Assembly (NCBI GenBank): GCA_036345935.2 | Contig: JADWOT020000001.1 | Span: 29,579,062 to 29,643,061 of the forward strand | Direction: 5' to 3' | Source: Taenia hydatigena | Taxonomy: Eukaryota; Platyhelminthes; Cestoda; Cyclophyllidea; Taeniidae | Length of the DNA stretch: 64,000 bases | Shown: positions 27,231 through 60,790 of the stretch, one piece after another | Numbering within the stretch: position 1 is the first letter of the stretch | How the letters are laid out: each line of letters begins with the position of its first letter | Made by a program: the position numbers and the translations under genes | The notes under the pieces: generated by a model | What the model was told of the DNA's origin: nothing | Seen by the model: only the letters and a program-made list of their open reading frames with translations | Databases searched by the model: none

Positions 27231-28637
27231 GAAGAGTACTTATCAAATCAGCGCAACTCTCGTCGCTCTGCTCTGTTTATTGTGCCACCAATAAAGAGCG
27301 CTTGCTTCTTGCTCTCAGTCCACTTGTAACAAGGAAAGCAAGGCGGTCCTAATCCTCCTACAATCATTCACCCTCACGAGAACCTAGTTCGTTCTGAGTC
27401 GTCATTATTGGGATGTGGTACCACTGAGTACCACCTCTGTCACAATTGATGACTGCCTAGTCACGAAACACGAGGCGCTTGCATACCTGCATTCCTCTCA
27501 CGTGGTGACCGCAGTAGTTTGGGTCCGATCTAGTGCATGACCAACTTTTCCTTTTGAGTGTTTGCCTAAAGTTAACATCTTGACATATGTGCTTCATGTC
27601 TGTGAAAATAGCATTGAAAGGCAAAAAACTGTCTGGATTCTTTTGTGTGACGATAATCGGTCTATCAAGCTGCGTCAGTACAAATAATGTCTGCTCGTTG
27701 CCCGATTTCACTCTACCCTTTCTAAGGGAGTGAAGGTCGAGTCTGTCACACATTTCTATGGATTTGCTTGTTTGTTCACGCCTTCATGCCCATACCCAAA
27801 GATTGCCGACCACAAAGGACCATTCCTCCATCCTTCCTCGTTGCAGCTTTTGTTTACCTAAAACGAGTGAATTTAGAGCAGACAGCTTCTCGTCCAACAT
27901 TAAGGACTACTTCGTCAAGCACATTTAGTGCAAATGTGCCGGTGTGCCGAAAAGGCTTCCGATTTGTCAACGTTAGTAAATGGTTCGGTGACAAAGTGCC
28001 AACTCAGAGCTAAAAGGAGTGGTGGAAAGCTTTGATAAATCCACCTTTCCTTCACCCCATTCCCTTGCATTTTGGCACGATAGTTTGATTTAAATATAGC
28101 TTTTTGCTACATCCAGTTCTCACTTTTGCCACCCACTTGAGCAGAATCGGGTGAAAGGTATTGACGCCAACACTGGTGGTTCCCATAATCACCAGTGAGT
28201 GAGAGGTGAGGCATGGTGGCAGTACCTGTAGCCACAATCACGAACTACTGGTCCACTAGTCAACGAGGGCGATGTAGTATCAACTGATTGCAGGTACAAA
28301 TGTCTGTGGTGATGTCCTCATGCCGAGGTTGACAATGATGACACAAAATGCGGGTCAACACGCCAAATGAGTTACCCTCGCTGTTGGAGGCCTGACATAG
28401 GTTAGGTCACGGGTTGATCACTAATGCGTCAAGTGGGAGAGGTGATGGCTAGTGGAGTGTGCGATCGTCTCCAGCATTCAAGGCATTCATGAAATCAGAT
28501 AGCGACAAAAATTGCAGCACTGCTAACCCCTGACCGCATTTTGTCCAACCACATGAAGAGGGTTTGTTCCCCTCCTAGTGACGATTACCAGGACTCAAAT
28601 GCGGCATCGCACAGAAACTAAAGTCTGAATCTATAAA

Positions 28638-28854
28638 TTGAGGATTGAGTGCATTGACATGAGAGGACTGATAGATGGGGAGACGACGATACAAATGGTG
28701 CCAAATAAAGGGTCTTTAGGCACAAGCAACCTCTCGACAAAGAAGATAAATCGTACAAAATTTAAAGATGTTCGCAGTTTAAGCGATCTGCTTTGGCTGT
28801 CCTCGCTCCAAGCGAGTGAAGGACAACGAGCGTGAGATAAACTTTGGCTTTCAT
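28638..28854 (-). pseudogene. Broken copy of secreted-protein-like start
   Basis: On the minus strand an ATG at 28854 opens MKAKVYLTLVVLHSLG followed by ARTAKA, a textbook signal-peptide pattern (basic start, hydrophobic core, small residues before a predicted cut). It reaches a stop at codon 31. The copy at 60276-60515 reads MNAKVYLALIVLYSLG and stays open for 79 codons. Between the two the changes are mostly conservative (T/A, V/I, H/Y, K/R) or silent. On the plus strand the same DNA is also open here (66 codons, with SNLSTKK) but broken in the 60-kb copy. Which strand, if either, was coding is unresolved. Confidence 0.4.
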
Positions 28855-28966
28855 CTCCCCTCACTTGACTACCCTTTCCTTAAAGCGCGTATGGTGCGTG
28901 CATTTTAATGACTTTCTCTGTCTTTGGTGGCGTGATGAACGAGGTAGCGTGAAGGGACTAGGCACG

Positions 28967-28986
28967 TTGCTGCTGCTGCTGCTGCA
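28967..28986. repeat. (TGC)n microsatellite
   Basis: Six to seven TGC units. The aligned site at about 60630-60645 has no such run, so the expansion is specific to this copy. Confidence 0.8.
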
Positions 28987-29110
28987 AGGCAGGGGGAGGC
29001 GCCCACGCCACTCAGTTGGCCTCACAGGCCATATTTACGGGTGAACCATTTTCTGACGTTACGACACTATCAGCTAATAGGCGAAAATATGGAGGGGCTA
29101 CTGAGATTGG

Positions 29111-30119
29111 ATCAGGTTCTTAAAGAGGAAACTTGTCCTCCAGGACGAGCTGACAAGAGACACACGTTTGACTGACAGCAAGATCAAATCACCACATGCA
29201 TTAACTGAGGGCAAGAATCTGCTTTCACGTTGGGAATCACTTGGATTGTTCCTTGTCGTGTGAGAGATAATTGGATCTACTTCCATCCCACCTGCCGAGT
29301 TGCCGAATTTATTTTGGGCCAGTTGGCATTAAATTCCACTTCTCTCTACTTTAATAGTAGTTAAGTCGTTTGCATAGCCTTTTGGCTTCATGTTGACACT
29401 TAGCCTAGGGATGATGCCCGATCAAAGCTGTTGGTTAGTTGATGGGCCATTCAGTCGTTCTACAGCTTGGACAATAACTATTCAAGTTCAATTCTAGCTG
29501 ACTCATTAGGTAGCAGAGTGTGGAGGGTCGAAGGTACCTAGTAAGTAGCCAACTGAGGTGTGTAATGAGCTTTTCATTAACCAGACCGCTAAGTAGTCGA
29601 TTAACTGGGAGCCACAGTGGCATCAAATTGTCGCATCTTAAACATGACCAACCTTTCGGTTTGATGGTCTTTTCACTGATCCCAGAATCAAAGACACGAT
29701 GCCATGGTTGTTGACACGTTAACGTACCAAGGGGTTCATCCCATTAGGGATTTCGGGTTGTTGTATAGCAGCTTGGTCAGTAAATGAGTCAGATGGCAAG
29801 TCATTCACTACCACTGAATTTGGTCGAAAACATAGGTTTTCGTTACAAAACACCTTTGCAAACACAAACAAAAGTTTCGAAATTTCTGGTTAGGTTCTGA
29901 CCCACGCTTGATTACCTTTATAAATCCCAATTGCAAACATACCGCTTTTTCGGTCCTCTGGCTTACACATCCACCAAATCTGAGCCATTCAGCTACAAGG
30001 ATTCGCCTCATTATTAGGATCTTCGTTATCTTCATTACGCTGTCACATTCATCGTGTTATTAGCGACAGGGAATGACTCCTACAAACCTATTCACCCACT
30101 ATGACGTCATTTCCTTAAA
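29111..30119. other. Unassigned
   Basis: No supported gene. Frames at 29435-29714 on the two strands are complements of each other. Confidence 0.5.
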
Positions 30120-38106: not shown

Positions 38107-38768
38107 TTGCATTTGTCATCAGACCATGACAGATAGGTTTGTGTGGTCAGAGAGACCACTCCTGCAAATCGTTGTGCCGCTACGCTGGCTGATCTTGCCC
38201 AACTCGTCAATTTCTCGACCTAAAATTCTACAAGGAGCTTTATTCTACTTTGAGTTGTATGGCATATTGCAAAGTGAGAACACCAAAGGGCACAAAAATT
38301 GTGTTCTCTAAAATGCGATATCGTTCTTTCCTTCTCACTTTCAAACAAGAGGCATTAGATGACGGCTAAAACACAGAACCTTGTAACTTACAAATCACAG
38401 ATTAACGCAAATTCACAATCTTTATTCCAATGCAAAGAATTTTACAATCAGCGACTCAGTAACTTCAGCTATCCAATCTTACGAACATGTGAGAACACAC
38501 TCCTCTCTTCATTCTATGCCTGCTTACAAACTGTCACATCAGTTTTACTTAAATGTTGCTCAGAAAGGCAATTTAGACATTTGACTAGGAGCCACTGAAT
38601 TCAATTTAATTCGTCCATCCTCACTGTAGCCATTTGGTTCTCAAGCCTCCCTTTGCCAAGATCGCCCACAAAGCCTCACATCTCCCAGTCACTCGCGCTC
38701 AGTCTGCTCCACTCATTGCATGCTGTCACGTGCAGTTCAAATTGTCGTCTTCGATCCAACTGCTCAAT

Positions 38769-39641
38769 ATGAGCAGTGCGCTGAACCTACTCACATGGTC
38801 CTACATGTGGGCAATTGTTGGAATCGCTGGAACCCTTGTCGACTGTAAGTGTGTCCATTTTGCTAATAAATCTGCTGCCTTGTAGATGTGACAAGAAGGA
38901 AAGGCGAGGCGGGAGAGCGCTACCAGCGCTCAGTTGGTGTTGAGGCTAGACCCTGTGTGCGCCACCACCGAAGGCTGCCACCGGCCTCAGTGGACCGGGA
39001 CACAACCAGTTTCGCCATCTCTTTCCTTCGTGACGAGGAGGTTGCACCGGCCATTGGGGCCGTGTGTCCAGGCACCGACCCAAGTAAGTCTCACTCCCTT
39101 CTTTCCCTCCTCCTCCTGTTCATACTGGTCAAGTCACTTTGTAGGAGTTACATAGCGACTCTGGATCAAGACATACTTCATGCTTTTGTGCTCAATCACT
39201 TGGTCCATAATTACTTGCAGACTCAGCATACGTCATTCAGCTGACTTGCTTTCAATGTTTGGGCAGCTAGCAGTAGCATTAGCGTTGCTTTCACTTTAGA
39301 CCACCTAATTTACAGGCATTAGCCACATCGGCATGGTTTTGTTCCATCTTATAGCTGAGCGCTGGTGGCGAGAGTGGAATGCTCAGCACCCCCGTAAGCT
39401 CTCCATACTCATACGCTCTCCTCCTCGTCCTCCTCCTCCTCATTTCTCATCCTCACTTTTCTCTTTTTCACTTAATCTTTTAGGGCCATCGGAGGGCTAT
39501 CAACCCCACCTCCCATGCCGCCCCTGTTTCCTCCTTCCTTCCTTCTCTCCTTCCTCCCCTCCCCCCCTCTTAACCACTTGCCAAGGGGAGGCGTACTTCA
39601 CGCCACCACCTCCACCCAGTCACTTGCACACCGGCACATAG
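38769..39641 (+). CDS. Four-exon gene, putative small membrane protein
   Basis: Exons at 38769-38844, 38886-39083, 39316-39393 and 39484-39641 join into one 510-base frame (169 residues). Introns of 41, 232 and 90 nt have GT-AG ends, three strong donors (GTAAGT, GTAAGT, GTAAGC) and pyrimidine-rich acceptors, and all four exons agree in phase. The protein starts MSSALNLLTWSYMWAIVGIA, a hydrophobic stretch that could be a signal anchor. Arg-rich residues follow, then an HLIAERWWREW motif and a Pro/Ser-rich tail ending in a TAG. The reading frame is open upstream of the ATG to about 38634, so an earlier exon is possible. Exon 1 also resembles a dispersed sequence (47085-47180), so its coding status is weaker than that of exons 2-4. 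Exon 2 has a diverged relative at 8911-9034 (-). I do not recognise the family. Confidence 0.6.
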
Positions 39642-42341: not shown

Positions 42342-45300
42342 GCTGATTACAACCAAATCTACGTCCCCACCACTACCCTTTGTAAGTCCGCATAAACGAG
42401 CACAAAATATTATTTCATGACTAACATTTCCGTCTTCCTACCTTTACATTATTCCAACCACTTTTTCAACAAGAAATCCAATTTAGAAAATCGAGGCTAA
42501 AGCATTACTTAAACGCTGACTGTAATCAGAGCCACCCTGATCACACACTCGGGTGGAGCCAAATCAGACACTATTTCACATTTCTCCTAGATAATTTGTT
42601 TCCTTCGGTGTCATAGTCACAACTTTCTCGAATGCACCAGACCAGTCCCTGAAACAGTCTCCATCAGCGACTATGAAATATGCACATTTCAAAGCATCGT
42701 CCCTTACTACTGCGAAGGACCTATTCAATCGCTGTGAACAGCACCTAATCGCCACACTTCCTCGTCCAACGACTTTTAAAGTGAAGACGACTGTCTCTCA
42801 AAAGTAATTACCGATCCGCCCTTTCTAGTGCCAAGTTAGGCTTTCGCAATAGTTAGGAACCAGCATTCTCTCCCTGATTACAGTCGGTAAGATTAACATT
42901 TACAACCTTAGATGCATTTAAACCTTTCCAACGATTAGTTCCACCGCAAATACTGACTACTGCTAGTAATTTAAGGCTGCAAAATACATTCCCATCTTTT
43001 CTTCCAACATTTTCTACCTTTCAAGATACAAGAAACCTGACAACTTCAAAAACAACACCGTACCAGCCGTGATTTTTCGCAGAAAAACCCGTATTTTGCA
43101 TAAACATTGATATAACCTGATACAAGCACATCACCTTTGGTTTGGTTTTGGTTACCTGCATAAGTCGAGGCAGTGCTTGCATTTCAGTGAGCAAGTTAAC
43201 TGCATAGAGACTTTGCATAAACCCAAGAAAGACACGAAACTTGATATGAATGATTCACTTGTACACCCAGACAAAACACATTATCCGCAGTGAGTCTGTA
43301 ATAACTTGAACCTCTTGTGTCGCCACGTGTTGCAGAAAGGCGAGACGCCATTAATAACACCTAATGAATGCAAAGGACTTACGAAACTCTTGTTGTAATA
43401 GGAATCGTTGGATGAAGGAACGAATGTCCTCACCGGTGATGTTCACGCATACGCAACAACAGCAGTGGCACCAGCGGCATTAGCGGAAGCAGGACACAGC
43501 GGAGGAGGCAAAGCACAGAAAGGCTGAGTCGCCCCTTAAGTCGATCGAACCGCGTCCACCAACCGTCGATGTGCCGTGGAGTACCCACCATATCCCCATC
43601 CTCCAGGTAGGCCGGGAGAACTGTACCTGAAACACTGAAATATAGCTCAAAAATAAATCTTCTCCTAAGAGCAAAACGTAGATCGGCAAGGGCACACCCA
43701 ATCCTCATGCCAACACGAGAGACCACCACTAATCCACCCAAGCGCCATGCCACAGCGTACAAACCACCATCCCACCCCAACCCCGATAGTAATTAGTCCA
43801 GGTGAGGCCAGAAACCGCCTCAGCTTTCTGCCTTAGATGTTCTCCACGCCACCTCTCCCACTCCCTCCTTTTTAACTCCTTTTCCATCCGTTCTCACTCT
43901 TAAGGCTAGGTCGCATTAGCAGTGGGAGTAGCACAACACCCGCCCCACGCTTTCCTCAATAGTTCGCGCCCAACACACTCAACAGTGGAGACCTATTCAC
44001 TTACTTACCGCCTCTGAACTGATACACCACTACTCATCACTTATACAGTCAGCAACAAATTAACCTCCACCCTCCCACAGCAATAATATTTCCGCACCTC
44101 TGGGAACAAAATATGCCGCGGTTGCCACCAGTGGGCTCTAAACCATTGCGCTTCCATTCGTCGTCGTCATCGTCGTCGTAAGAGAACGTCTCCTTCACTC
44201 TTTCCCACACCCACGGCAGAGCTCTTCCAGCCTTTCCCCACTTACTCACCCAGCCACCCATGCCCGCGAAGACAAGCATACGGAGGCATAGTAGCAGCAG
44301 TAGACCCTGTCGCCCATGCCAACAGTCGCATCGCACAACCCAGACGGAGACGCCCCCGTCGCCACCGCGAATTACCCCAACATCTTGCATTGCCTACCAT
44401 TCCACCCACTCATCACATGTTACTTCACCATCACAACCACCAAGGTAAGTTTGTAGCATCAGAAAAGGAATAAAAAGACCAAACAATGGAAAGACCCATG
44501 TGTGAGGCTCTAATGCACTGCAAAGCTAACATTCACAAACATAACTACTAATGGGAAAAAAAGAAACAGACAACTCAACAACCAAACACTTAAAACTGCT
44601 ACGAAGTACAGTCTGCGTAGTGATGCCAAAGCTTCCCACTAGCCACTCCTTCTTCCTCCGCTCCTATCCCTACCGCAGCTACCTCACTCAGAGACACAAA
44701 CTCATGCCGTCAAAGTTGAACAACCTACCATCAAGCCATCACCGAGGCCCTCTACACAACATGTTTCACACCAAGGATCGCATCAACACAACAAGCAACC
44801 CCGGCCCTGTCCCCACTCCTTCGCCATCCATATGTGCGCCAACAACACGCATATCATAGGGATGAGAATAGCGCAGGTAAAGCAGGTAAAAGAGAACAGC
44901 ACTTTCCCATCCAACATATGGACGCACATTGATTTCATCGCTGCCCACACGAAAAAGGACAACAACAACTCATTTAGCACAATCCAATCTTACCTGAGAA
45001 ATGTGTAAAGTGATAACAAAGACGAGATTTGCACTCATTACTGCTGCAGCTTCTTCTTCTTCAGTTTCTATTCTAGCACGAAAACGAGACAAAAAATGTA
45101 CAATACCATTTATAAATATGGTGAATACTTATTAGCAAAAAAAAAAACAACAATGCTTGGTTACCATGCCCTTAGCAACGTTAGAACTCCTCCCAACAAA
45201 ATCTATCGACATCAGAAAGCAAACAAATTACAAATTGCCAGAACAATCTTAACACTCGAGGTGTCATACAGCGAAAAGTGTACGTGAGTAGGCATCGTAG

Positions 45301-45794
45301 TTGGAAGATTAAACGTCCTAACAGCCACATTATGAGACTTTTGCGTTTACTTTACCAAACTTACAAGTCCCTTCATCAAATTGGACCTCATTCATCAAAA
45401 CTCATTCTTACTAAAGTAACAAACCGCTTAAAAACAGCCAAAGCAATCGTACTTAATCCAAAAAAGTGTTTTGCAGTAAAAAACTCAACGCAATCAGGCA
45501 GTGCAAATGGAAAACAAAAAGTTGTGACAGCAACTGCACCTATTCCTGAAACGGTCGGTCTAACAACTGACAAATAAAGTAAAAGCATACACCTACACAC
45601 ATTCATAAAGTGGGTGTTTAATCGCAAGAAACCACCAAGCAAGTAAGTGCCAAACACATCGTAGGGTTTTAGCACCTCTCCACAAAATTACGCCTCATTA
45701 CTCAAATTCAAATGTCATTAAAAAACAAACAACCCCACAATCTGCTGCAACAGTCGCAATTTATCTCTACACACCGAAAAATGCACATGAGGAG

Positions 45795-46560
45795 ACCTTG
45801 CAGTTGAAAAGTGGCCGTCAACATTCACATTAAGAGGCATTTGCTTCTACCCCAACAAGTATGTGTATAAAAGAAGAAAGTTGACATTTAAAGTACCTCA
45901 CAACAACTGACTAACTTAAAATACTCTAAAGGTACTCAATACCTACCAGGCTCTCAACTTTTGGCAGCGGATAAAGGCGCATTACTCCACAAAATAATGT
46001 CTCCAAAAACGCGCACCACTTACGCAAGTCGCGCGCAAATCCGATTAATCAGTTCGTAGTTCGTCCGATAAAACAAACGAACTTTAAATATTTATGCATT
46101 TACGATAAGATTATAATTACGACAAATACTTAAAGTTTTGACTTTCGTGCATAATTTGGTTGAGAAACATGCTAATGACAATTTACAAAGTGAGCAATAC
46201 GAGAAAGCTGTTAATATTTGTATATCAGTAACATAAATGCATAATAGTGATACTGTTAGGTTTGCCAACAAATCGTGAAAGTGGTTCAAACTACAGCGAG
46301 CAATGTCGTTTTGTCAATTAGCTGTACACTTCAATTTGCTTCAAGCATGTGTTTTGTAGCAAAGTTCACATTCAAAGCGAATGGGCGGGTTGCTCAATTA
46401 GCGCAATGGACTGACCCTACCCACATGGTCTTGCATGTGTCAATCACCTTTACAAAAGATACGCATTTCTATGAAATCCTGTTGAAAGTCTTTTTGGCTG
46501 GTGGGGTGTAAGCTACGTTTTGAGTTGGCAATTTGCGGTTGCGATGCCTGCACATCTCAC
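45795..46560 (+). repeat. R repeat, copy 3
   Basis: About 0.75 kb, matched in reverse orientation at 53005-53735 and 55545-56285. It has a TATA-like GTATGTGTATAAAAG near its 5' side (about 45862), an AT-rich centre, and near its 3' end a plus frame reading SSMCFVAKF then RVAQLAQWTDPTHMVLHV and ending LAGGV. The same frame is kept in the two other copies with conservative changes, but the 55.6-kb copy has a stop in it. Family unknown. Confidence 0.65.
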
Positions 46561-47043
46561 TAAACGTAGACGAGGTGACACAGTAGCCAACTTCTTAATT
46601 ACTTCCTGATTCAAGCATCAACTTCGTAATTGCTTCCTCATTTGAGCATCAGTCTTATTGGCAGTTGTTCCATTCAGTGGAGTGCTACCTGACCTTCTAC
46701 CTCGTGTGGTAGCTGTCATGACATGACTTGTAATTGTCTGAACTTACCTGATCTGCCAATAACCCGAATGCAGTTGTGAAAACTAATTCGATTTTGCTAA
46801 GATAGTTGTGTGAGTTTATCTAAACTTTTTGATCCCCTCTGTGAGGAGACATGAGAAGGCTGAGAGAGTATGAGACATGTTTACTGAGCCACAAATAATG
46901 TTAGAGCTAATAATCGCATCCATAATCTTCCACACTTGTGAGTTTGTCATTGCGGTCCCTTCCCCTTTTCCTCCTCCTTTTCCTTTTTCTCCACTGCCTC
47001 ATAATCCCACTTCCGTGTCAGCTCCCTATTGTGGGGTTCGAAG

Positions 47044-47180
47044 GCTCCCTTGATGGCAAACGAAGGCAAAATATCAGGGTAGAATGCTCAATTGGAGCAG
47101 TGCGCTGAACCTACTCACATGGTCCTACATGTGGGCAATTGTTAAAACTGCTGGAACCCTTGTCGACTGTAAGTGTGACC
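47044..47180 (+). repeat. Mosaic of LTR-like piece and gene exon-1-like piece
   Basis: The first 45 bases resemble the start of the LTR-like repeats at 37.3 kb (CTCCCT-GA-GGCAAACGAAGGCA). The next 95 bases match 38761-38855 almost exactly, including the donor GTAAGTGTG. The downstream exon is not present here. Confidence 0.6.
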
Positions 47181-47896
47181 TTCACTGCTGTCACTGTTGG
47201 TCACTGGGTTCACCTAGCAGATGCGATAAAAGCATATCAGATTTAAAAGATTCAAAACCAAATACTACTCATGACTCATTGCTGTGAATCTTGAGGCAAA
47301 TAAATGGATGTCGTATCACATTTATTTACAAGGTCAGTGGAAGGTATTGAGCAAAGTGGAAGAGAAAAAGCGCCATCATTTCATTAAACGAGGAATGCAA
47401 AGGTCTGCAAGTTATCTAAAATTTGTGTGAAGACCGATAGAGGCTGATGCTTTTTCGCGAATTCGCCACTTATGTTACTCACTAATGGCACGTTATTCCT
47501 AACTCTGACGAACAAGTCATCCACCTTGATCCACCAAGTTCACCCATTCATCAACTTGAATGTCGTCTTGGTTAGTCACTTGTGGATCCACTCATGAGCT
47601 CACCACCTCTACGTCCACTCATTAATTTAGCAATTATCCAACCAGACAATCAAGTGTCCACCGCATCGACACTCTTCCATCAGTTCATCCCTCCTCCTCC
47701 TCCTCCTAACCCGTCCAAGGGTGTCAGCGATCACCCCTACTCCCACACTTAATTCGCCTCTTCATATGTCGACATCTATGTGCCCAGTTCCACAGTTCAT
47801 CAATTCACAACCCTCACTTCTGTGCAGCTCACACTTCACTACTCTCCACTTCTTCCTCTCACCTATACCTTCACAAATCCAAGTCTTTATCATTCC

Positions 47897-47944
47897 TTCC
47901 TTCCTTCCTTCCTTCCTTCCTTCCTTCCTTCCTTCCTTCCCTCC
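47897..47944. repeat. (TTCC)n microsatellite
   Basis: About eleven TTCC units followed by CTCC and ATCC units. The inverted partner near 55040-55083 has a shorter and more interrupted GGAA run. Confidence 0.9.
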
Positions 47945-48117
47945 ATCCATCTACCTATCTGTCTAATTTGATCGCGCGTCACACATCCCTCAACACCGAG
48001 CTTCCTATGAGCATACACATCTCCATTAATACTTCTTCTTCTTCTCCGTCTTAGAAGAGGAAGGAGGCTCTTCAGATTCTCCACTCTCCTCCCACAGCCA
48101 ACTAACAACGACTCTTC

Positions 48118-48363
48118 ATGATCGCAGCCCAAACGCATACAACACATACACAAACACAGTACGAAACACAAGCACTGCAGCATACTTACAACCTATCACA
48201 CGCAGCCACTACCCACCCGCAACACAAACAAATCACCCAACCAGTCAGTTCTCTCCTCCAAAAAATAATGACAAGGAAAATTAGTTGTCCTTCATCACCT
48301 TTATCACTTTCAACGCAAACAATCCTATCGCTAGGCAGCACATCCCATGCCCATGTGGCCTAA
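48118..48363 (+). other. Conserved 81-codon frame upstream of gene copy A
   Basis: ATG to TAA, reading MIAAQTHTTHTQTQYETQAL and ending TSHAHVA. The reverse-strand partner 54621-54866 is the same length, with only a handful of residue changes and about 96 percent base identity. In each arm the frame ends about 25 bases before the start codon of a family gene copy. It could be a short upstream frame, part of a 5' exon, or simply sequence homogenised between the arms. Composition (His, Thr, Gln) gives no function. Confidence 0.35.
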
Positions 48364-48388
48364 GTAAGAACATCGAGAACTTTCAATC

Positions 48389-48755
48389 ATGTTACTCTTG
48401 CGGCAAATCAAAGTCATCATGCGCGTGGTAGACATTGAAGGAGCCGAAGAGGGCTTCCTCATGAGCATCCTCTTCTGCATGTGTGTATACGCACATGCAG
48501 ATGAGTCGAGCCAGTCAATGTCGCCCGTCGATGATGCTGCCCATGTGCGGCGCCCAGTCTTCACACTGCTGCTAGCCAAGTGTCCACTTAAGCAGCCCAG
48601 GCATCACCACCAGTAATGTGCATTTCAGAGGAGCGCCAGCAGGATGCAAAATGAGCAGTTGGAGACAGTACCACCACCATCGTCAACGTCTCAACCATCG
48701 CTGGCCTCACTCCCCTTGCTGCAGTACTCCCCACCTCAGTCGTCCATATCCGCCA
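48389..48755 (+). pseudogene. Gene family copy A, frame-broken
   Basis: The first exon opens at ATG 48389 and reads MLLLRQIKVIMRVVDIEGAE then SILFC, matching copy C. Where copy B has a donor (CTGGTAAGT) copy A has CTAGCCAAGT, so the splice site is lost and the frame runs on to 48616. A second exon-like segment (48629-48755) has a good acceptor (GCATTTCAG) and a donor GTGGGT, and ends PQSSIS like copy B. It lacks the acidic run and is out of phase with its own start. I read it as a decayed paralogue. A third exon could begin after the CTCTAG acceptor near 48966 but is not alignable. Confidence 0.5.
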
Positions 48756-51211
48756 GTGGGTTGAATGCACATTGCCTATCTTATTCCACCTCTCCCATGC
48801 CCACTCCCTCCTGCCACCACCACCACCATCTTCTTCTTTTCCTCCGCCTCCTCCTCCTCACTCACCTCCTTTCCACCTTCCCAAGAAGGAGGAACACACG
48901 TAATTCTTGGTGCCCACCAACTACTGCGGCACGTCGTCTGCACTACATTTCTTCACTTTCTCTAGGTCTCCGTGCCTACGTCCGACGTCGACGGTGTGGA
49001 ATGAAGGAGCACCAAGGCTTCGCACTATGAAGTGTGCACCCAACTAGCAGGATTAGATGGCGACACTACGACCACCATCACTGTCGGCACCAACGCTGAC
49101 CTGGCTCCACCCATTTCGTCGTCCACACTCGAACTCTACGCAGAGTAGAAATACAAACAGGAAAATATCATCACTACCCTCGAATCAGAGATGGATAAAG
49201 CGATAGGAGAAATAATCACCCACTTTACATCCTGCCCACGCTAACGATGCCGCAGCTTTGAGACAAAGTTTGCCATTCATCGCATCTCCCCGTCTTCCTT
49301 TCTCCTTCCTCCTCTTCTTCGGGGCGAACATAGAATGATGATACGTAAGTTGTACCAACCGCACAATTCTGCCATCACAGTGACACGTCGTAGCACAAGT
49401 CTTCTCCCAGCCGCCTTCCTCCTCTTCCTCCTCCTCCTTCTCCTTCTCCTCCTTCTCCTTTGCTCTCCATCACACCAAACAGCCGCCAAATACGTCTACG
49501 AAACCATTCACTGCAAATACCAAATCAGTGACTTAGTACTGTGGTGCCAACAATGCACGAGAAAGAGAGAGAAGAATAAGGAAAGCAAGAAATAGGGTAA
49601 AGAGATAAAGAATATGAAAAAAGAAGTAGGCATAGAACAGGTGGGGTACGATTTGAAATAGCCATCCAACATACATGCAGACATCGGCAAAGCAGACAAC
49701 AGGTCACCGCCGATGGAAGTGGCGACGAAGACAGTTCACCTCCATTGCTACGATAATCTTTCTAGACAGTTGTCAATGCGCCACCCTTTGACCAATCCAG
49801 ACACTGACAAGACAGACTCATTGCTCTTGCAGTGGGATTGCATGACATGATTGCAGTGCTCGTCAGACCAAAGCCATAAAAGCGAGGTCATGAAGAAGAA
49901 GCTCCACATGTGTGGAAGCCATCCATGCAAATTCTTGCAGAAAACCAGACACCCTATCTCCCCGCCACCATTGCCGTAACGAAGCAAAACACAATGCAAT
50001 GGGTTCAAAATCGCCGACCTTGTCAACAGCAGTAGTTTCGCATCCGTACGAACAAGTGCACGATTACCTTTCATAACATCAACTTAAACAACACCCCAGC
50101 CATAGTACTGCATCAGTAGCGACAATTCTGCACACAACGAACAAGGTTATGCACAGTGACGAATGCAGCATACAATTAAGCTAACATCAGAAAGAATTAA
50201 GGCTGCTCATATTCTCACCTAATAAACAGCTTGAATTTGTTCGAAATTGTCAACATTCACGCCTTCAACTGCAGCACTACATTCGGCATTACTAAAGCTC
50301 AGTGTGACACGGGGAGTTGTGGCATTAATGCATGGCCTTATGATGCAAAACGGATCGTCAGGCATCCAAGGCGTCGTGTAGGGGTAAAGGTGATGGTCTC
50401 ATTCAGGTTTCCTTCCCTTGCAGCATAATGAGGTCAGTGTGTCCGTGGAGTAAATGAGTCACTGGCTAGAAGGCATCGGGTACACTACTGTTGGTGAATT
50501 GAACTGGGAGGCAACAGCATCGCCGAAGTGTGTAGACAGGCATGGTGATGCACACTGAATAATGCATGACTTGCAGTCGTAAGTAGGAGCCAGTGAGCAT
50601 GTGGACGACTGGCATGGCAAGCGCTTGAACCTACCAAGCAAAGTGAATGGCGTTTTGCAGAGGACACCATCTCCCCACCACAATGTGGCTCACAGCAGAT
50701 GAGTTTAATCACGCACGTACACCTGTGGTGAGTTGGTGGAGCAGTTGAGTTGTGACAAGTGCGCCCTACACTACATTGCGTTGTTTGCAGATCACTCATG
50801 CCCTGCCTAACTCTATGCTCACTTCCATTTTCATTTCACATAGGCCCATATGGAGGCAGGAGGTCAAATTGAAGGTGGTGTTGTCGTTCTCAACACTGTC
50901 GCATATCCACTGAAAATGGACGACTCTCGACATGGAGGCACAAGTGGCTATCTACCAACTACTCATGCGTTTGCATCCAAACCTGCCCGCCCTTCCTCCT
51001 GTTTGTCTGTTTACCTGTCTGTCTGCTGTCTTTTGTCTGCCTACCTACCAACCTGCATGTCTCGCTGTCTGTCGGCAATAAATCAATTAATCAATCAATC
51101 AAACAACCAACCAATCGACATGTCGCATTTGAATGTCACTTGCACTATCACGTACACACGCTGAGGTAGGTTCGCTGCAGCCACTTCATGCCAGTCTTCT
51201 GTTAATAGAAA
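48756..51211. other. Left-arm-specific segment between copies A and B
   Basis: This about 2.4-kb segment has no partner in the right arm. It contains a polypyrimidine CTC/CTT tract (49405-49465) that creates a poly-Leu artefact frame, and mixed short frames with no splice support. The flanking copies A and B share about 80 bases in direct orientation at its borders (48421-48502 and 51222-51300). Confidence 0.5.
49405..49465. repeat. Polypyrimidine (CTC/CTT)n tract
   Basis: Tandem CTC, CTT and CTTCTC units on the plus strand. Frames across it read as Leu/Phe or Arg/Lys runs and are not evidence of a gene. Confidence 0.85.
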
Positions 51212-52824
51212 ATGAGCAATTACGTAGTTGATATTGCGAGAGCCGAGAAAGACTTCCTCCTGAGCATCCTCTTCTGCGTGTACAGGTACATGCAGATGAG
51301 CGAAGCTAGTCGGAGATGTCTGTGTGCAGCTCCGAGTGTTCAATCTGCTGGTAAGTGTGCGATTGAGTGGCGTCAGCGTCACTAATAACACTGTGTGTTT
51401 CAGAGGAGGGCGAGCTGGTCGTGATTGAGGAGGCGGAGCCAGCACAGCCAACGCAGCCGTCGGAGTCAACGGAGCCGGAGGAGCTCGCGGAGGAGCAGGA
51501 GGAGGAGGAGGAGGAGATGCTAATGCCATCATCGCCGTCTCAAGCATCGCTGGCCTCACCCATCCTGTCCCAGTCCTCCCCATCTCAGTCCTCTATATCC
51601 TCCAGTACGTTGCTTGAACATGGTCTATCTCATCCTTCGTTTCTCATGTCTACTCCCTCCACGCTTTCATACTGCCTGCTCCTTCCCTCATTCTGTGTCT
51701 CCCATTTCTTTCAGGCATCCATGCATTCATTTTATGCATTCATTCATCCATTCATTGATGAGACTCACTCTTGAACCAATTCGGTGTGGTGAACCACTTC
51801 GCCGTCTACTTCTCCTCCTCCTCCACCTTCTTTCCCATTCCCTTCACGTAGGCTTAGAGGTGAACTACGAAGTGGAGGACTGGCTCATTCCTCACCAGGA
51901 CCGTGAGGGGCAGGCGCAGGGAGAAGGGTCAGCTATGTCACCCACCACCAGTGGCACGCCCACCTCCCACTACCTCAGCGCCTCCTCACCCAACCACGTG
52001 GTTGGTGTCTCTTGGGGAGGTGGCGACAATGATGCGGTGCAGCCAATGAGAGTGCCAATTACACATGAATCGTCATCATCGCTCGTCCGTCTCGAGGGTA
52101 GGCAGGAGTCGGTGGAGGCCAACACTCCCCCACCTATCCGCTCATCCACTCACGAAATCGTTAGTCCAGACAGCACGTCGGGTGAGTGAATACCACCTAC
52201 CACCCACCTCTCTCCACTCTCCACCTACCCATCCATCATCCATCGTCCATCGTCGTCGGAGTCGTCATCATCATCGATTTTTCTATCATTTTACGGTTGA
52301 ATCGGAGGCTCGTCAACAGTCCCTTCGCCTTTCAGTAAGTGCGCCTTCTTCTACCTATAATACTACTACCACCANCCACCTCTCTCTACTCTCCACCTAC
52401 CCATCCATCATCCATCATCCATCGTCGTCGGCGTCGTCATCATCATCGATTTTTCTCTCATTTGACAGTTGGATCGGAGGCTCGTCAACAGTCCCTTCGC
52501 CTTTCAGTAAGTGCGCCTTCTTCTACCTATACTACTACTACCACCACTACTAATACTACCACTACGACTGCTTCGGCTGTTGATGCTGCTATCTACTTTA
52601 TTCTTGCCTCATTATCTCGTGCAATTTTGATGACACATACATGTGCGTAGCAAACGCGACTGCAGTTCCTTTACACTCTCCTCTCTTTCCTCCCTTCTCC
52701 CCCTTCCCCCACCCACCCCTTTTTTTCTCCCTCATTACGCCTTTTGCCTTTACAGTGGAGAAGACGCCTTCGTAACAACATCCGACGCGTGCTGCGCTCA
52801 CTTTCTTCTTGCTGTCGCCGTTGA
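51212..52824 (+). CDS. Gene family copy B, five exons, acidic/Ser-rich protein
   Basis: Exons at 51212-51350, 51404-51604, 51852-52181, 52469-52506 and 52756-52824 join in phase into 777 bases (258 residues plus TGA). Introns are 53, 247, 287 and 249 nt, all GT-AG (GTAAGT, GTACGT, GTGAGT, GTAAGT). The start ATG at 51212 has A at -3. In order the product has a short hydrophobic patch (FLLSILFCVY, residues 15-24), an acidic and Gln/Pro tract with EEQEEEEEE, a Pro/Ser tract, a 110-residue exon-3 region starting LEVNYEVEDWLIPHQDR, a 38-nt micro-exon (VGSEARQQSLRLS), and a basic C-terminus WRRRLRNNIRRVLRSL. No known domain recognised and no polyadenylation signal seen nearby. The micro-exon lies in a tandem duplication, of which only the second unit has an AG acceptor. 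Confidence 0.65.
52203..52548 (+). repeat. Tandem duplication containing the micro-exon
   Basis: Two units of about 173 bases (52203-52375 and 52376-52548) are nearly identical: CCATCCATCATCCAT, GTCGTC, ATCATCATCGATTTTTCT, the micro-exon, then GTAAGTGCGCCTTCTTC. Unit 1 has TTTTACGG where unit 2 has TTTGACAG, so unit 1 lacks a 3' splice site. The single N (52375) marks the junction and may reflect an assembly ambiguity in copy number. Confidence 0.85.
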
Positions 52825-53004
52825 TGCTGTAGTTGCTGCTGTTGCCGTTATCGTTTCGGGTTCAGTGACCCGTAAATGCAATGCTTTTTTACATGCTTGA
52901 TTGAAACAGATGGTGCCTTATTAGCGCCACCAACACAGCGTCCAAACCATGGGAGAGTGGGTAGACGGACGCTCCTCATCGCCAAAGGCCGACGTCATGT
53001 TTGC

Positions 53005-53735
53005 TGTCATCTGAAAACGCAGCTTACACCCCACCAACCAACAAGATGTTAGGCGGGATATGGTACAAGTGCTCATCTTTTGTGAAGGTGATCGACACTT
53101 GCAAGTCAATGTAGGTAAGGTCAGTCCATTGCTCCAATTGAGCAACGCGTCTATTCGTTTTGAATATGAACTTTGCTACAAAACACATGCTTGAAGTAAA
53201 TAGACGTGCACGACTAATTGACAAAATGACATTCCTCACTGTCGTTTAAACCACTTTTACGACTTGTTGGCAAACCTTACAGCATCACTATTATGCATTT
53301 ACATTACTGATATACAAATATTAAAAACTTTCTCATTTAGCGCGCTTTGTAAATTGCCATTAGTACGTTCGCTACTCAAATTATACGCAAAAGTCTAAAA
53401 TGTTGGTATTTGTCGTAATTATGATTCCATCAAAAATACATAGAAATTCAAAGTCTGTTTGTTTTACCGGACGAACTTTGAACTGATTAGCCAGATTTGT
53501 GCACGGCTTGCGTAAGTGGTGCGCGCTTTTGGGGGTAAATTTTGTGGAATAATGCGCCTTTATCCGCTGCCAAAAGTTGGGAGCTTGGTAAGCACTGAGT
53601 ATCTTTTGGTTACTTTTACTTAGTCAGTTGCTGTGAGGTAGTTTAAATGTCGATTTGTTCCCTTTATACACACTTGTTAGAGTAGACGCAAATACCTCTT
53701 AATGTGGCTGTTGACGGTTACTTTTCAACTGCAGG
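53005..53735 (-). repeat. R repeat, copy 1
   Basis: Direct-orientation relative of copy 2 (55545-56285, about 83 percent by eye) and inverted relative of copy 3. On the minus strand it reads SSMCFVAKFIFKTNRRVAQL, then EQWTDLTYIDLQVSITFTKD and LLVGGV, open for 71 codons (53024-53239). Its edge at 53735 joins the intron that follows exon 3 of gene copy C, replacing that gene's last two exons. Confidence 0.65.
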
Positions 53736-53758
53736 GTTGGTAGGTGGTGGTCACTCAC

Positions 53759-54595
53759 CCGTCGTGCTGTCTGGACTAACGACTTCGTGAGTGGATGAGC
53801 GGATTGGTGGGGGAGTGTTGGCCTCCACCGACTCCTGCCTACCCTCGAGACGGACGAGCGATGATGACGATCCATGTGTAATTGGCACTCTCATTGGCTG
53901 CACCGCATCATTGTCGCCACCTCCCCACGAGGCACCAACCACGTGGTTGGGTGAGGAGGCGCTGAGGTAGTGGGAGGTGGGCGTGCCACTGGTGGTGGGT
54001 GACATAGCTGACCCTTCTCCCTGCGCCTGCGCCTGCCCCTCACGGTCCTGGTGAGGAATGAGCAAGTCCTGCACTTCGTAGTTCACCTCTAAGCCTACGT
54101 GAAGGGAAGGAGGAGAAGTGGTTCACCACACCGAATTGGTTAGAGAGTGAGTCTCATCAATGAATGAGTGAATGAAGGCATAAAACGAAAGCGTGGAGGG
54201 AGTAGACATGAAAAACGAGGACTGGGACAGGGTGGTTGAGGACAGCGATGCTTGAGACGGCGATGATGGCATTAGCGTCTCCTCCTCCTCCGCGACCTCC
54301 TCCAGCTCCGTTGATTCCGACGGCTGCAATGGCTGCGTTGGCTGTGCTGGCTCCACCTCCTCAATCACGACCAGCTCGCCCTCCTCTGAAACACACAGTA
54401 ACGCTGACGCTGCTCAATCGCACAACGCTTACCAGCAGATTGAACACTCGTCACCGCACACAGACATCTCCGACGAGCTTCGCTCATCTGCATGTAGCTG
54501 TACACGCAGAAGAGAATGCTCAGGGGGAAGTCCTCCTCGGCTCCTTCAATGTCTACTACGTGCATGATGACTTTGAATTGCCGCAAGACTAACAT
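53759..54595 (-). pseudogene. Gene family copy C, truncated and donor-less
   Basis: On the minus strand exon 1 (54595-54433) reads MLVLRQFKVIMHVVDIEGAE and ends in GTAAGC. After a 47-nt intron, exon 2 starts at 54385 with EEGELVVIEEVEP. A deletion then removes the end of exon 2, its donor and the first intron bases, so the frame reads FFMSTPS and runs on to 54123. Exon 3 (54094-53759) is intact with its acceptor and GTGAGT donor. It is 336 bases against 330 in copy B (two extra residues, AQ) with about 8 substitutions. Exons 4 and 5 are absent because R copy 1 begins right after exon 3. Translation of the full protein seems impossible. Confidence 0.6.
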
Positions 54596-54620
54596 GATTG
54601 ATCGTTCTCTATGTTCTTAC

Positions 54621-54866
54621 TTAGGCCACATGGGCATGGGATGTGCTGCCTAGCGATAGGATTGTTTGCGTTGAAATTAATAAAGGCGATGAAGGACAAC
54701 TAATTTTCCTTGTCATTATTATTTGGAGGAGAGAACTGACTGGTTGGGTGATTTGATTATGTTGCGCGTGGGTAGTGGCTGCATGTGATAGGTTGTAAGT
54801 ATGCTGCAGTGCTTGTGTTTCGTACTGTGTTTGTGTGTGTGTTGTATGCGTTTGGGCTGCGATCAT
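54621..54866 (-). other. Partner of the 48.12-kb frame
   Basis: 81 codons on the minus strand, MIAAQTHTTHTQTQYETQAL to TSHAHVA, with about 96 percent base identity to 48118-48363. It sits the same distance upstream of gene copy C as its partner does of copy A. Confidence 0.35.
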
Positions 54867-55544
54867 GAAGAGTCGTTGTTAGTTGGCTGTGGGAGGAGAG
54901 TGGAGAATCTGAAGAGCCTCCTTCCTCTTCTAAGACGGAGAAGAAGAAGAAGTATTAATGGAGATGTGTATGCTCATAGGAAGCTCGGTGTTGAGGGATG
55001 TGTGGCGCGCGATCAAATTAGACAGATAGATAGATGGATGGAAGGAAGGGCGGAAGGAAGAAAGGAAGGAAGGAAGGAGGGAGGGATGAAGACTTGGATT
55101 TGTGAAGGTGTAGGCGAGAGGAAGAAGTGGGGAGTAGTGAAGTTGTGAGCTGCACAGAAGCGAGAGTTGTGAATTGATGAACCGTGGAGATGGGGTAGGG
55201 TAGCTGTCGTGTCTCTTGACAGAGGGAATCAAAAAGTTCAGATCATTCCACACAAAAGTAATCCTGTTAAATTGTCGAGCGCTCCTACCTCTATCATGAT
55301 CAACTATCCCAGTAGAATCGAGCCTGTTTTCACAATTGCATTCTGGTTACTGGCAGATCAGGTAAGTTTAGACAATTAGCAGTCATGTCATGACAGCTAC
55401 CACAAGAGGTAGAAGGTCAGGTGGCACTCTACTGAATGGAACAACTGCCAATGTGATTGATGCTCAAATCAGGAAGTACTTACGAAGTTGGCCACTGTAC
55501 CACTGCGTCTACGTATAGTGAGATGTGCAGGCATCGCAACCGAA

Positions 55545-56285
55545 AAATTGTCATCTGAAAACGTAGCTTACTCCCCACCAGCCAACAAGATGTTAGGCGG
55601 GATTTGGTACAAGTGCTCATCTTTTGTGAAGATGATCGACACTTGCAAGTCAATGTGAGTAAGGTCAGTTTATTGCTCCAATTGAGCAACGCGTCTATTT
55701 ATTTTGAATATGAACTTTGCTACAAAACACATGCTAAAAGTAAATTGAAGTGAACAACCAATTGACGAAATGACGTTACTCATTGTTTTTGAACTGCCTT
55801 TACGATTTGCTGACGGACCTCGCAATATCACTATTATGCATTTATATTACTAATATGTAAATATTAACAGTGTTCTCATTTTGTGCACTTTGTAAACTGT
55901 CATTCGTATGCTTGCTGCCCAAATTATACCAAAAGTCGAAACTGTTGGTATTCGTCGTAATTATGGTTCCATCAAAAATACATAAAAATTTAAAGCTTAT
56001 TTGTTTCATCGGACGAACTTTGAACTGATTAGACAGATTTGTGCGCGGCTTGCGTAGTTTGCACGTGTTTTCGGGGTTAGTTTTTCTGAGTTAATGCGCC
56101 TTCATCTGCTGCCAAAAGTTGGGAAGCCAGTAAGTATTAAGTATCCTTTTATTATTTTTAGTTAGCTAGTTGTTGTGAGGTACTTTATATGTCGATTTGT
56201 TTCCTTTATACACATACTTGTTAGAGTAGACGCAAATGCCTCTTAATGTGGCTGCTGACGGTTTCTTTTTATCTGCAAGGTCTTC
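55545..56285 (-). repeat. R repeat, copy 2
   Basis: Syntenic partner of R copy 3 within the inverted duplication, and in direct orientation to R copy 1. The minus-strand frame reads SMCFVAKFIFK then RVAQLEQ and meets a stop, after which TDLTHIDLQVSIIFTKDEHL follows. It carries GTGTATAAAGG, the TATA-like segment, near its 5' side. Confidence 0.65.
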
Positions 56286-59164
56286 TCACGTGCATTCTTT
56301 CCTGTATAGATATAAATTTCGACTGTTTTTGCGGTTTGTGAGGTTATTTGTTTTTACTGACGTTTGAATTTGAGCATTGGGGCGTGATTTTGTGGAGAGG
56401 TGCTAAAACATTACGAAGTCTTTGGAAATTACGTGCTTGGTGCTTTCTTGAAAATAAGCACCAATTTTACGAGTGTGTCGATGTATGCTTTTGCCTTTAC
56501 CAGTTTATTTGTTAGACCAACCTTTTCAGAAACAGCCGCAGTTGCTTTCATAACTTTGTGATTTCCATTTGCACTGCCTGATCGCGTTGAAGTTGTTAAT
56601 GCAAAACACTACTTTGGATTGAGTGCGATTGATTTAACTGTTTTTAAGCGGTTCCTTACTTTAGTAAGAATGAGTTTTGATGAATGAGGTCCAATTTGAT
56701 AAAGGGACTTGCAACTTTGGTAAAGTGAACGCAAAAGTCTCATATTATGGCTGTTAGGACGTTTTGTTTTCCAACTACGATGCCTACTCACGTACACTTT
56801 TCGCTGTATGACACCTCGAGTGATAAGTTAAGATTGTTTTGGCAATTTGTAATTTGTTTGCTTTCTCACTACGAAGTGTTAACCATATTTATAAATCTTA
56901 TTATGCATTATTTAGCTCGTTTTCGTGCTAGAATGGACACTGAAGAAGAAGAAGCTGCATCAGTAATGAGCGCGAATCTCGTCTTTGTTATCACTTTACA
57001 CATTTCTCAGGTAAGATTGGATTGTGCTTAATGAGTTGTTGTTGTCCTTTTTCGTGTGGGCAGCGATGGAATTAGTGTTCGTCCATATGTTGGTTGGAAA
57101 AGTGCTGTTCTCCTTTACCTGCTTCACCTGCGCGATTTCCATTACTATGATATGCGTGTTGTTGGCGCACATATGGATGGCGGAGGAGTGGGTGCAGGAC
57201 GAGGGTTGTTTGTTGTGTCGATATGATCCCTGCTTTGAAACATGTTGTGTAGAGGGCCTAAGTGATGGCTTAATGGTAGGTTGCTCGGCTTTGACGGCAT
57301 GAGTTGGTGTCTCTGAGTGTGGTGGACGCAGCAGGGTTAGGAGCGGAGGAAGAAGGAGTGGCTAGTGTGAAGCTTGGGCATCACCACACAGACTGTACTT
57401 TGTAGCAGTCCTAAGTGTTTGTTTGTTGAGGTGCCTGTTTCTTTTTCTCCTATTAGTAGTTATGTTTGTGTATGTTAGCTTTGCAGCGCTTTGGACCCCC
57501 GCACATTGGTCTTTCCATTGTTTGTTTTTTTCCTTTTTAGATGCCACAAACTTACCTTGGTGGTTGTGATGGTGAAGTAACGTGATGAGTGTGTGGAATG
57601 GTAGGCAATGCAAGATGTTGGCGTGATTCGCGGTGGCGTCTCCGTCTGGATTGTGCGATGCGACTGTTGGCATGGACGACAGGGTCTACTACTGCTATTA
57701 TGCCTCCGTATGTTTGTCTTCGCGGGCATGGGTGGCTGGGTGATTAATTGGATGGGTGGCGGCGAAGGAGGGGAAAGGCTAGGGAGCTCTGCCGTGGGTG
57801 TGTGAAAGAGTGAAGGAGACGTTTACTTATGACGACGACAACGACAACGAATGGAAGCGCTATGGGCCAGAGTTCGATGGTGGCAACTGCGGTATGTTTT
57901 GTTTCCGCAGGTACGGAAATGTATTTGCGGTGGGAGGGTGGAAGTTAATTTGTTGTTGACTGTAAAGGTGATGAATGGTGGTGCATCATCTTAGAGGAGG
58001 TAAGTAAGTGGGTAGGTCTCCACTGTTGGATGTGTTGGGCGCGAACTATCGAGAGGAGGTGGGGGCGACTGTCGTGCTTCTCCTACTACTATTGCGACTT
58101 GGCCTTAGGAGTGAGAATGGATGGAAAAGGAGGGGATGGGAGGGACCGTGTAGGGAGTATCTGGGGTAGGAAGCTGGGGTGGTTTCCGACCTCATCTGGA
58201 CTAGTTACTATCGGGGTTGGGGTTGGGGCTGAGGTTGGGATGGGATGTGGTTTGTGCGCTGTGGCGTGTCACTTGGGTGGATTCGTGGTGGTCCCTCGTG
58301 TCGGCATGGGGATTGGGTGTTGTTTTTGAAGTTGTCAGTTTCCGTGTATTCTGAAAAGGTAGAAAGTGTTGGAGGAAAAGATGGAAATGTATTTTGCAGC
58401 CTTAAAGCACTAGCAGTAGTCAGTATTTGCGGTTGAACTAATTGGTGAAAAGGGTTAAACGCATTAAAGTGTGTGAATTTTAATACTACTAAATGTATTT
58501 ACTGATGCAAAAGCCTAAGTTGACATTAGGGAAGGCGGATCGGTGGTCACTTTTGAAAGACTGTCTCCTTCTCTTCAAAAGTCGTTGAAAGAAGAAGTGT
58601 GGCGATTAGGTGTTGTTCAAAGCGATTGAGTGGGTCCTTCGCAGTAGTAAGGGACGATGCTTTAAAATGTGCATATTTCATAGTCGTTGATGAAGACTGT
58701 TTCAGCGAGTGGTCTGGTGCATTCGAGGAAGCTGTGACTATGGCAGTGAAGGAAACAAATTATCTAGCAGAAATGTGAAAGTGTGTCTGATTTGGCTCCA
58801 CCCGAGTGCGTGACGAAGGTGGCTCTGATTGCAACCAGTGCTTAGGTAATGCTGTAGCCTCGATTTTCTAAATTGGATTTCTTGTAGAAGACCTTACTCC
58901 CATCAGTCATCGCGGTAATCCAGCAAACTTTTGAAGTGAGGTGGAGAATAGCGTCACCAGGGTATAGACAGAAAGCGGTGTGCAAGGGGGATAAGGCTGG
59001 GCTTAAGGTGATCGTTGCCTCGTACCGGCACGAAGCTATCTCAGGAGAAGCGATGCCTTAGGACAAACAGTGGGAAACAAGAGGAAACGAATACGATTCG
59101 AGGTTGTTTGCCGCATAAGGAGCATAAGCCCTAGGTGCATGCGTTCATTCCGCATGATTGTTTT

Positions 59165-60790
59165 AGTATGTTGGGTCGGATCTAATGCGTAACCAACTTT
59201 TCTTTTGAGTGTTTGCCTAAAGTTAACATCCTGACTTATGTGTCATATGTCTGTGAAAATGGCATTGAAGGATAAATAAAACTGTCCGGATTCTTTTGTG
59301 TGACAATAATCGGTCTATCAAGCTGCGTCAGTACAGATGAAGTCTGCTTTTTGGCTGTTCTCACTCTACCCTATCTAAGGGAGTGAAGGTCGAGTCTGTC
59401 ACACATTTCGATGGATTTGCTTGTTTGCTTACGCCTTCATGCCCGTACCCATAGGTATCCGACCACAATGGACCATTCCTCCATCACTTTACTTTAGAGC
59501 TTTTTTTCCCCAAACAAATGGATTTAGAGCAGGCAGCTTCTCTTCTAACATGAAGGACTACTTTGTCAAGCACATGTAGTGCAAATGTGCCGATGCACCG
59601 AAATGGTTTCCGATTTGTCAACATTAGCAAATGGTTCGGTGGCCAAATGCCAACTCAGAGTTAAAAGGAGTGGTAGAGGGCTTTTCCTTTATTCCAATTC
59701 CCTTGCAATATGGCAAAATAGTTTGATTTAAGCAAAGCCTTTTGTCATATCAGGTCCTAATTTGTGCTAACCACTTGAGCAACATCGGACAAAAGGTAAT
59801 GATGTAAGCATTTGTGGTTCGCAAACTTATCAGTGAGTGAGATGTGACACATAATAGTAGTACCTGCGGCCAAAATGACGAAAACTGGTCCGCTAGTCAA
59901 CGAGGGAGCTGCAGTATCAACCGATTGCAAATACAAATGTCTGCAGTGATGTCCTCACGTCGAGGTTGGCAATGATGACACAGAGTGCGGACCAACACGT
60001 CAAATGAATCGAGCTCGCTGTTCGAGGTAAGACATAGGTTAGGTCACGGGTTGACCACTAATGTGTCAAGTCGAAGAGGTAATGGCAAGTGGAGTACGGC
60101 ATTGCCCTTAGCATTTAAGGCATAAATGAAATCCGATAGCGATGGAAGTTCCAGCACTACTAAGCTCCGACCGCGTTGAGTCAGACTGGGAGGAATATCC
60201 ACTCAAACACATGAAGAGAATTTGGCCTTTTCGTAGCGACGATTGCTAGAACCCAAATGCCGTGTCGCACAGAAACTAAGGACTGAATCTATAAGCTGAG
60301 GATTGAGTGCATCGACATGAGAGGATTGGTAAATGAGGAGACGGCGATGCAAACGGTGTCTGCAAAAGGGTCTTTAAGCACAAGCAACCTCTCGACCAAA
60401 AAAAAGAAAAATTGTACCAAATTTGAGGATGCCCGCAGCTTCGGCAATATGCCCTAGCTGTCCTCGCTCCAAGCGAGTAAAGAACAATGAGCGCGAGATA
60501 AACTTTGGCGTTCATCTCCCCCCACTTGACTATCCTTTCCTTAAAGCGCGTGGATTGTGTGCATGCAAATGACTGTCTCCGTCTTTGGTGGCGTGATGGA
60601 CAAGGTAGAGTGAAGGAGACTAGGCACAGTGTTTCTGCTGTATCACCGCTATCTCTGTCTGTTGCACACGTCACTCGGTTGTCTTGATCAGCCAGTTCAC
60701 CGGCGCATCATTTTCTAACGTCACGTCACTATCAGCTAATAAGCGAGAATAAGCAGGGACTACTAAGACTGTATTTGGCCCCTGAGGAGA
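59165..60790 (+). repeat. 1.6-kb module, direct copy of 27.5-29.1 kb
   Basis: See the 27500-29110 entry. The shortened T module here (59545-59610) reads SFSSNMKDYFVKHM and has the same internal deletion as its partner, so both derive from one already-deleted ancestor. It continues directly into the T-M unit at 61.0 kb. Confidence 0.7.
60276..60515 (-). CDS. Possible secreted small protein, unproven
   Basis: A minus-strand ATG at 60515 opens 79 residues. The first 22 (MNAKVYLALIVLYSLG, then ARTARA) look like a cleavable signal peptide. The rest is rich in Cys, Ser and aromatic residues (YCRSCG, SRGCLCLK, LSCRCTQSS) and ends at TAG near 60276. The copy at 28854 keeps the signal-like part with conservative and silent changes but stops at codon 31. 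No intron or promoter is evident, and the opposite strand of the other copy is also open, so this may be chance. It sits wholly inside a repeat module. Confidence 0.3.
   Translation of the reverse strand: MNAKVYLALIVLYSLGARTARAYCRSCGHPQIWYNFSFFWSRGCLCLKTLLQTPFASPSPHLPILSCRCTQSSAYRFSP

Follow-up and report, generated by a model that had tools for sequence, protein, structure and literature searches.

A window of a Taenia hydatigena contig probably represents one copy of an inverted module that recurs along the assembled chromosome and carries an unrecognized gene

Why should two inverted arms that flank copies of one gene resemble each other closely in some blocks and poorly in others? The question is raised by a 64,000-nucleotide stretch of Taenia hydatigena DNA, here called the window (C1:29,579,062 to 29,643,061, where C1 is the 36.9-Mb contig JADWOT020000001.1); positions below are window positions unless a contig or locus is named. 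A first-pass annotation had described a large imperfect inverted duplication there with three copies (A, B, and C) of one unrecognized spliced gene, and had attributed the uneven identity of the arms to repeated homogenization between them. Self-BLAST of the window, used for all blocks and percent identities, confirmed the inverted layout, with 42,465 to 48,676 pairing with 58,889 to 54,339, and the gene copies are in the states claimed: B intact, A degenerate, and C lacking the exon-2 donor and exons 4 and 5 (Table 1). A local event was not borne out. Judged from sequence, the window appears to be one of several copies of an inverted module spread over millions of bases of one assembled chromosome. 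We consider it likely that this module (arm, A, B, block / C, arm) is part of an array of segmental duplications that arose by the steps proposed below. Five points are direct observations: how the parts are laid out, that the junction is shared, how copies group within the sampled set, that frames are open, and that they are constrained.

The window is not a single clean palindrome, as the partner of the inner right arm is A upstream of the gene and B within it. The central copy of a 730-bp block, between B and C, is 82.2% identical to the left-arm copy and 84.5% identical to the right-arm copy. When the assembly (306.03 Mb, 1,354 contigs) was searched with 2 kb of sequence around A, 40 of 214 candidate places were scored; 38 of the 40 lie on C1 at 26.76 to 35.83 Mb, with one on contig C231 and one on C1048. 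Several module copies are thereby placed in one chromosome region, a clustering that rests on scaffold order. When window elements were mapped onto fetched loci, the full module order was found at L017_18, 215 kb away, and, reversed, at L021_20. L023 and L022 (the same place as L004) had the order in part, L022 with a deletion. The compact A-B form in L029 to L032 is without the 1.6-kb stretch, L028 contains an inverted spacer, and L006, L008, and L026 have other joins.

Eight junctions between block and exon 3 in the fetched loci, spanning 26.77 to 32.03 Mb, are nearly identical over more than 5 Mb, and because of this the junction probably arose once and was then copied. The same exon-2 deletion is present in C of four modules (the window, abbreviated W, together with L017_18, L021_20, and L022). 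In L028, exon 3 is joined to an inverted block and spacer, as expected from an inversion between B and C. L038 has the junction together with B-type exons 1 and 2 and an exon-2 donor, a layout suggesting that the junction is older than the A/B hybrid described below; L038 may represent the state before C, the alternative being a recombinant.

Gene B is open through five exons with GT-AG introns throughout, encoding 258 amino acids; read from the N terminus, the protein has a short leading part, then a stretch rich in glutamate, a middle rich in serine, and a basic tail. A tandem 172-bp copy doubles its micro-exon 4, and the acceptor of the first copy is changed. Gene C starts out A-like and turns B-like within exon 1; a deletion has removed the end of its exon 2 along with the donor, and the copy ends after exon 3, whose donor is retained. 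By sequence comparison C appears to be an A/B hybrid, and it is probably a pseudogene. Exon 3 was not seen in any A copy of the loci compared. A similar open frame of about 80 codons was kept in 7 of 13 A copies scanned (window 48380 to 48620; the A copies of L017, L021, L022, and L029 to L031 among them), and with such a frame A may be something other than a mere remnant. The description of the gene as unrecognized held: B had no Pfam match at an E value of 1, its best PDB match reached only E 0.45, and a protein search returned 0 of 1,141 candidates at E 10. Because the control for that search was weak (an open reading frame [ORF] of L014, not clearly recognized by Pfam, found 0 of 116 at E 0.001), the absence of relatives says little about the age of the gene.

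The five-exon frame was kept in 16 of 23 B-type copies; four were frame-shifted and three truncated. These 23 comprise 21 copies (L037, which holds no B, was set aside) plus the truncated L031 and L028_B0, with fragments cut by locus ends, such as L007, outside the count. Neither L035, which lost one base in exon 3, nor L038, in which exon 3 is joined to the block, is intact. Net exon length changes were multiples of three in 22 of 26 cases, with L037 and L038 left out. Among the 16 open copies, the ratio of nonsynonymous to synonymous differences (pN/pS) was 0.36 (0.30 to 0.44 by bootstrap over copies), compared to 0.90 and 1.43 in the shifted frames; the 15 pairs among the first six copies ranged from 0.18 to 0.64. 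These comparisons indicate that B is a real gene under constraint, with no known domain. The sign of the constraint is clear but its strength is not, because mean intron divergence (0.021) lies below pS (0.043).

Identity between the arms was as uneven as first described. Scored per 100 columns, it spanned 67 to 96% across the distal arms and 90 to 100% upstream of A and C. With the three arm pairs pooled and the B-C pair left out, none of 2,000 shuffles reached the observed variance among windows or the identical run of 167 columns; in the same test on the largest arm block by itself, 0 of 2,000 shuffles matched the variance and 16 of 2,000 the longest run (65). Block identity is uneven beyond chance, and since blocks differ in identity, a palindrome made in one event was rejected as the principal explanation. 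Trees placed much of this unevenness before the modules spread. The right arms of W, L017_18, L021_20, and L022 formed one clade (support 100/100) that excluded the two left arms sampled, those of W and of its near-identical counterpart L017_18. The C upstream parts of four modules also formed one clade (99/97), and C exon 3 of W, L017_18, L021_20, L022, and L023 formed one group (90/92); 4, 5, and 1 inner branches were unsettled in the three trees. With most right arms and C copies grouping across modules, L028 being an exception, much of the unevenness would predate the spread.

Conversion has also acted since then. The window and L017_18 differ at 57 of about 8,907 positions in the left flank (0.64%), at 164 of 5,963 between 52.5 and 58.5 kb (2.75%), and at 28 of 4,999 past 58.5 kb (0.56%; Fisher P value of 9e-32). 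The three exon-3 copies of L028, one of which occupies the C position, show 1 to 5 differences among themselves over about 350 bases, and 23 to 34 when compared with the other 12 rows. From the divergent tract between similar flanks and the near-identical L028 copies, conversion is real and can be local, with exchange continuing between and within modules. Could the window therefore be a local inverted duplication whose unevenness came mainly from repeated conversion between its own two arms? Uneven arm identity fits such an origin, as do the L028 copies, nearly identical within their locus and far from other modules, and exon 3 of C in the window has more mismatches to its counterpart at a distance of 215 kb (17, to C of L017) than to its own B (11). 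However, the same exon is nearer still to C of L022 (9) and B of L023 (7), right arms and C copies mostly cluster across modules, and the module occurs elsewhere too. On balance we regard a purely local history as unlikely. Of the earlier proposal of repeated homogenization, more than one event is retained, while the unevenness did not come mainly from mutual conversion of these two arms, given the grouping across modules.

Two further explanations were weighed. Near-identical repeats could have been misjoined, making the axis of the window a false join at its only N (52375). This N falls where the second 172-bp copy begins; L017_18 lacks that copy, and divergence from this counterpart rises there. 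In addition, C231 is exactly 295,000 bases and C1048 exactly 326,000, lengths suggestive of cutting by a scaffolder. Yet divergence drops back past about 58.5 kb, which a single misjoin would not explain, the order B-block-C is present without the tandem copy in L017_18, L021_20, and, as far as fetched, L023, and the junction is common to eight sequences, all within the same assembly. A simple false join was rejected on the divergence profile and the shared junction, and an assembly artefact of this kind is highly improbable, although the join at 52,375 itself is doubtful because the N adjoins a tandem copy that the counterpart lacks. A transposable element that carries or mimics the gene would account for the many copies, and other interspersed families occur in the window at 65 to 80% identity. 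Against it, six-frame translation of 43701 to 58700 gave no Pfam match at E 0.1 and thus no transposition protein, neither the 1.6-kb stretch nor the 730-bp block had a recognizable target-site duplication or terminal inverted repeat at its edges, nearly all scored places fall in one chromosome part, and the modules are nested, truncated, and inverted, unlike a unit with fixed ends. Clustering, element edges, and the Pfam scan led us to reject this explanation, which we consider extremely improbable.

For the preferred reading, a segmental-duplication array of inverted modules, we propose the following history. A unit with degenerate copy A and working copy B would have come first. One rearrangement could then have fused exon 3 of an inverted A-B unit, at its 3′ edge, to the end of a 730-bp block, creating the head-to-head junction. 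In one lineage, a deletion running from exon 1 of A to the similar part of exon 1 of B would have produced hybrid C, from which the exon-2 donor was also lost; the A-like to B-like switch within exon 1 of C fits such a deletion. Lepore-type hybrid genes form by unequal recombination between tandem paralogues, and C likewise has an A-type start and a B-type body; unlike them, C also ends abruptly at the inverted junction, and it is probably a pseudogene. Segmental duplication may then have spread modules and compact A-B units across the distal part of one chromosome, with ongoing nonallelic recombination between copies leaving conversion tracts, deletions, and the inverted spacer. Selection would keep many B copies coding, giving a high dose of one small protein. 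We infer the order of events and the kind of crossover, as well as expression of B and an effect of its dose.

Several observations weigh against this history or against the constraint it includes. Many of the in-frame insertions and deletions fall in triplet or hexamer repeats, where slippage alone favors multiples of three. Exon divergence (0.0225) is about that of introns, so that the low pN/pS rests on a high pS, and exon 3 of B and C in the window differs by 6 replacement and 2 silent changes. The B copies were drawn nonrandomly from the best-scoring list, with L039 and L040 near-identical. The copy of L028 in the C position clusters with that locus's own B copies rather than with other Cs. 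All evidence is sequence of one assembly, and Hi-C scaffolding with ambiguously mapped reads may produce false clustering of repeats.

To our knowledge, taeniids are hermaphrodites without sex chromosomes. By its structure the module would belong to an already known kind, ampliconic segmental duplication, and be notable for its host. As described in the parts of the sources available, the human Y and willow sex chromosomes have palindromic ampliconic regions that likewise contain inverted modules with multicopy genes, conversion and inversion between copies, and clustering in one chromosome part (PMC3723533, PMC7023750). The window shares with ampliconic palindromes an inverted pair of long blocks; its arms are not near-identical through arm-to-arm conversion, being 81 to 92% alike, compared to more than 99.9% for human Y palindromes in the available part of PMC3723533. 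The T. hydatigena genome paper, in the portion available, gives 308.54 Mb, 43.02% GC, and 63.42% repetitive sequence, with unclassified repeats (46.68%) said to account for most expansion, local segmental duplications of five or more genes making up 0.63% of the genome, and a Hi-C version 2.1; within that portion, "palindrom-" and "inverted" are absent from the main text (PMC8384839).

Should the clustering prove genuine, inverted modules that keep many copies of one unrecognized, constrained gene occupy a large part of one chromosome. A bolder proposal, which we rate as distinctly unlikely, is that a sex-chromosome-like ampliconic region of about 9 Mb exists in a hermaphrodite without sex chromosomes, where inverted modules keep dozens of working copies of a lineage-specific gene, raising the dose of a reproductive or developmental protein or spreading selfishly (for example, by meiotic drive), and that this helps explain the unusual genome size. 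If the clustering itself is genuine, ampliconic architecture, best known from sex chromosomes, would in a hermaphrodite be separated from sex linkage, other favoring causes would become testable, and the unclassified repeats said to inflate this genome (PMC8384839, in part) would have a concrete structure behind them.

Table 1. Features of the inverted module in the window
Feature	Position	Strand or orientation	Description
Left arm, distal part	42465..46808	+	Three blocks, 80.8-83.4% to right arm, inverted
Right arm, distal part	55301..58889	-	Self-BLAST
Inverted block pair	42465-43059 and 58889-58316	Inverted	82.9%, self-BLAST
Inverted block pair	43694-45150 and 58320-56854	Inverted	83.4%, self-BLAST
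Inverted block pair	45214-46808 and 56866-55301	Inverted	80.8%, self-BLAST
Inverted block pair	47783-48505 and 55194-54483	Inverted	92.4%, self-BLAST
Inverted B-C pair	51186-52205 and 54597-53735	Inverted	76.2% overall, 88.7% over 51718-52205
Direct A-B pair	48387-48811 and 51186-51660	Direct	Two pieces, 70-76%
730-bp block, left-arm copy	45795..46530	-	Self-BLAST
730-bp block, central copy	53005..53737	+	Between B and C; edge at 53737 makes the inverted junction
730-bp block, right-arm copy	55549..56281	+	Self-BLAST
A upstream segment	47783..48420	+	92-94% to C upstream
Gene copy A	48424..48811	+	Degenerate; similar to parts of B exons 1 and 2 only
1.6-kb stretch	48966..50590	+	In some modules
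Gene copy B, intact	51212..52823	+	Exons 51212-51350, 51404-51604, 51852-52181, 52469-52506, 52756-52823
172-bp tandem copy with micro-exon 4	52191..52547	+	Window's only N at 52375
Inverted junction	53725..53745	.	730-bp block end joined to 3′ edge of inverted exon 3
Gene copy C, probable pseudogene	53735..54561	-	Exon 1 A-like at its start, B-like from there through exon 3; donor of exon 2 deleted; lacks exons 4-5
C upstream segment, A-type	54564..55194	-	Sequence comparison

Rfam gave no match on the window, and ARAGORN gave none on the window and eight loci. Eight 10-kb loci sampled elsewhere (L009 to L016) had a GC content of 41 to 47%. COX1 was not found in the assembly, and none of 6 pattern matches to viral contigs was confirmed. 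Nine ORFs were scanned, and fn3 matches were obtained in ORFs of L009 and L014; L009 (C1:1000001-1010000) has several similar fibronectin III ORFs in a row, with a near-repeat at a spacing of about 4 kb and the look of a tandem family. A run of short GAG-rich repeats adjoins an arm fragment at L027:7536-7746. Within the window, a 1.6-kb direct repeat (79% identity) occupies 27513 to 29112 and 59165 to 60774, its second copy directly past the right arm, and more interspersed families of 65 to 80% identity lie at 9 to 35 kb and 59 to 62 kb. A 96-bp direct repeat (93%) is present at 38761 to 38856 and 47085 to 47180, and its second copy ends where homology to the compact A-B units begins (47179).

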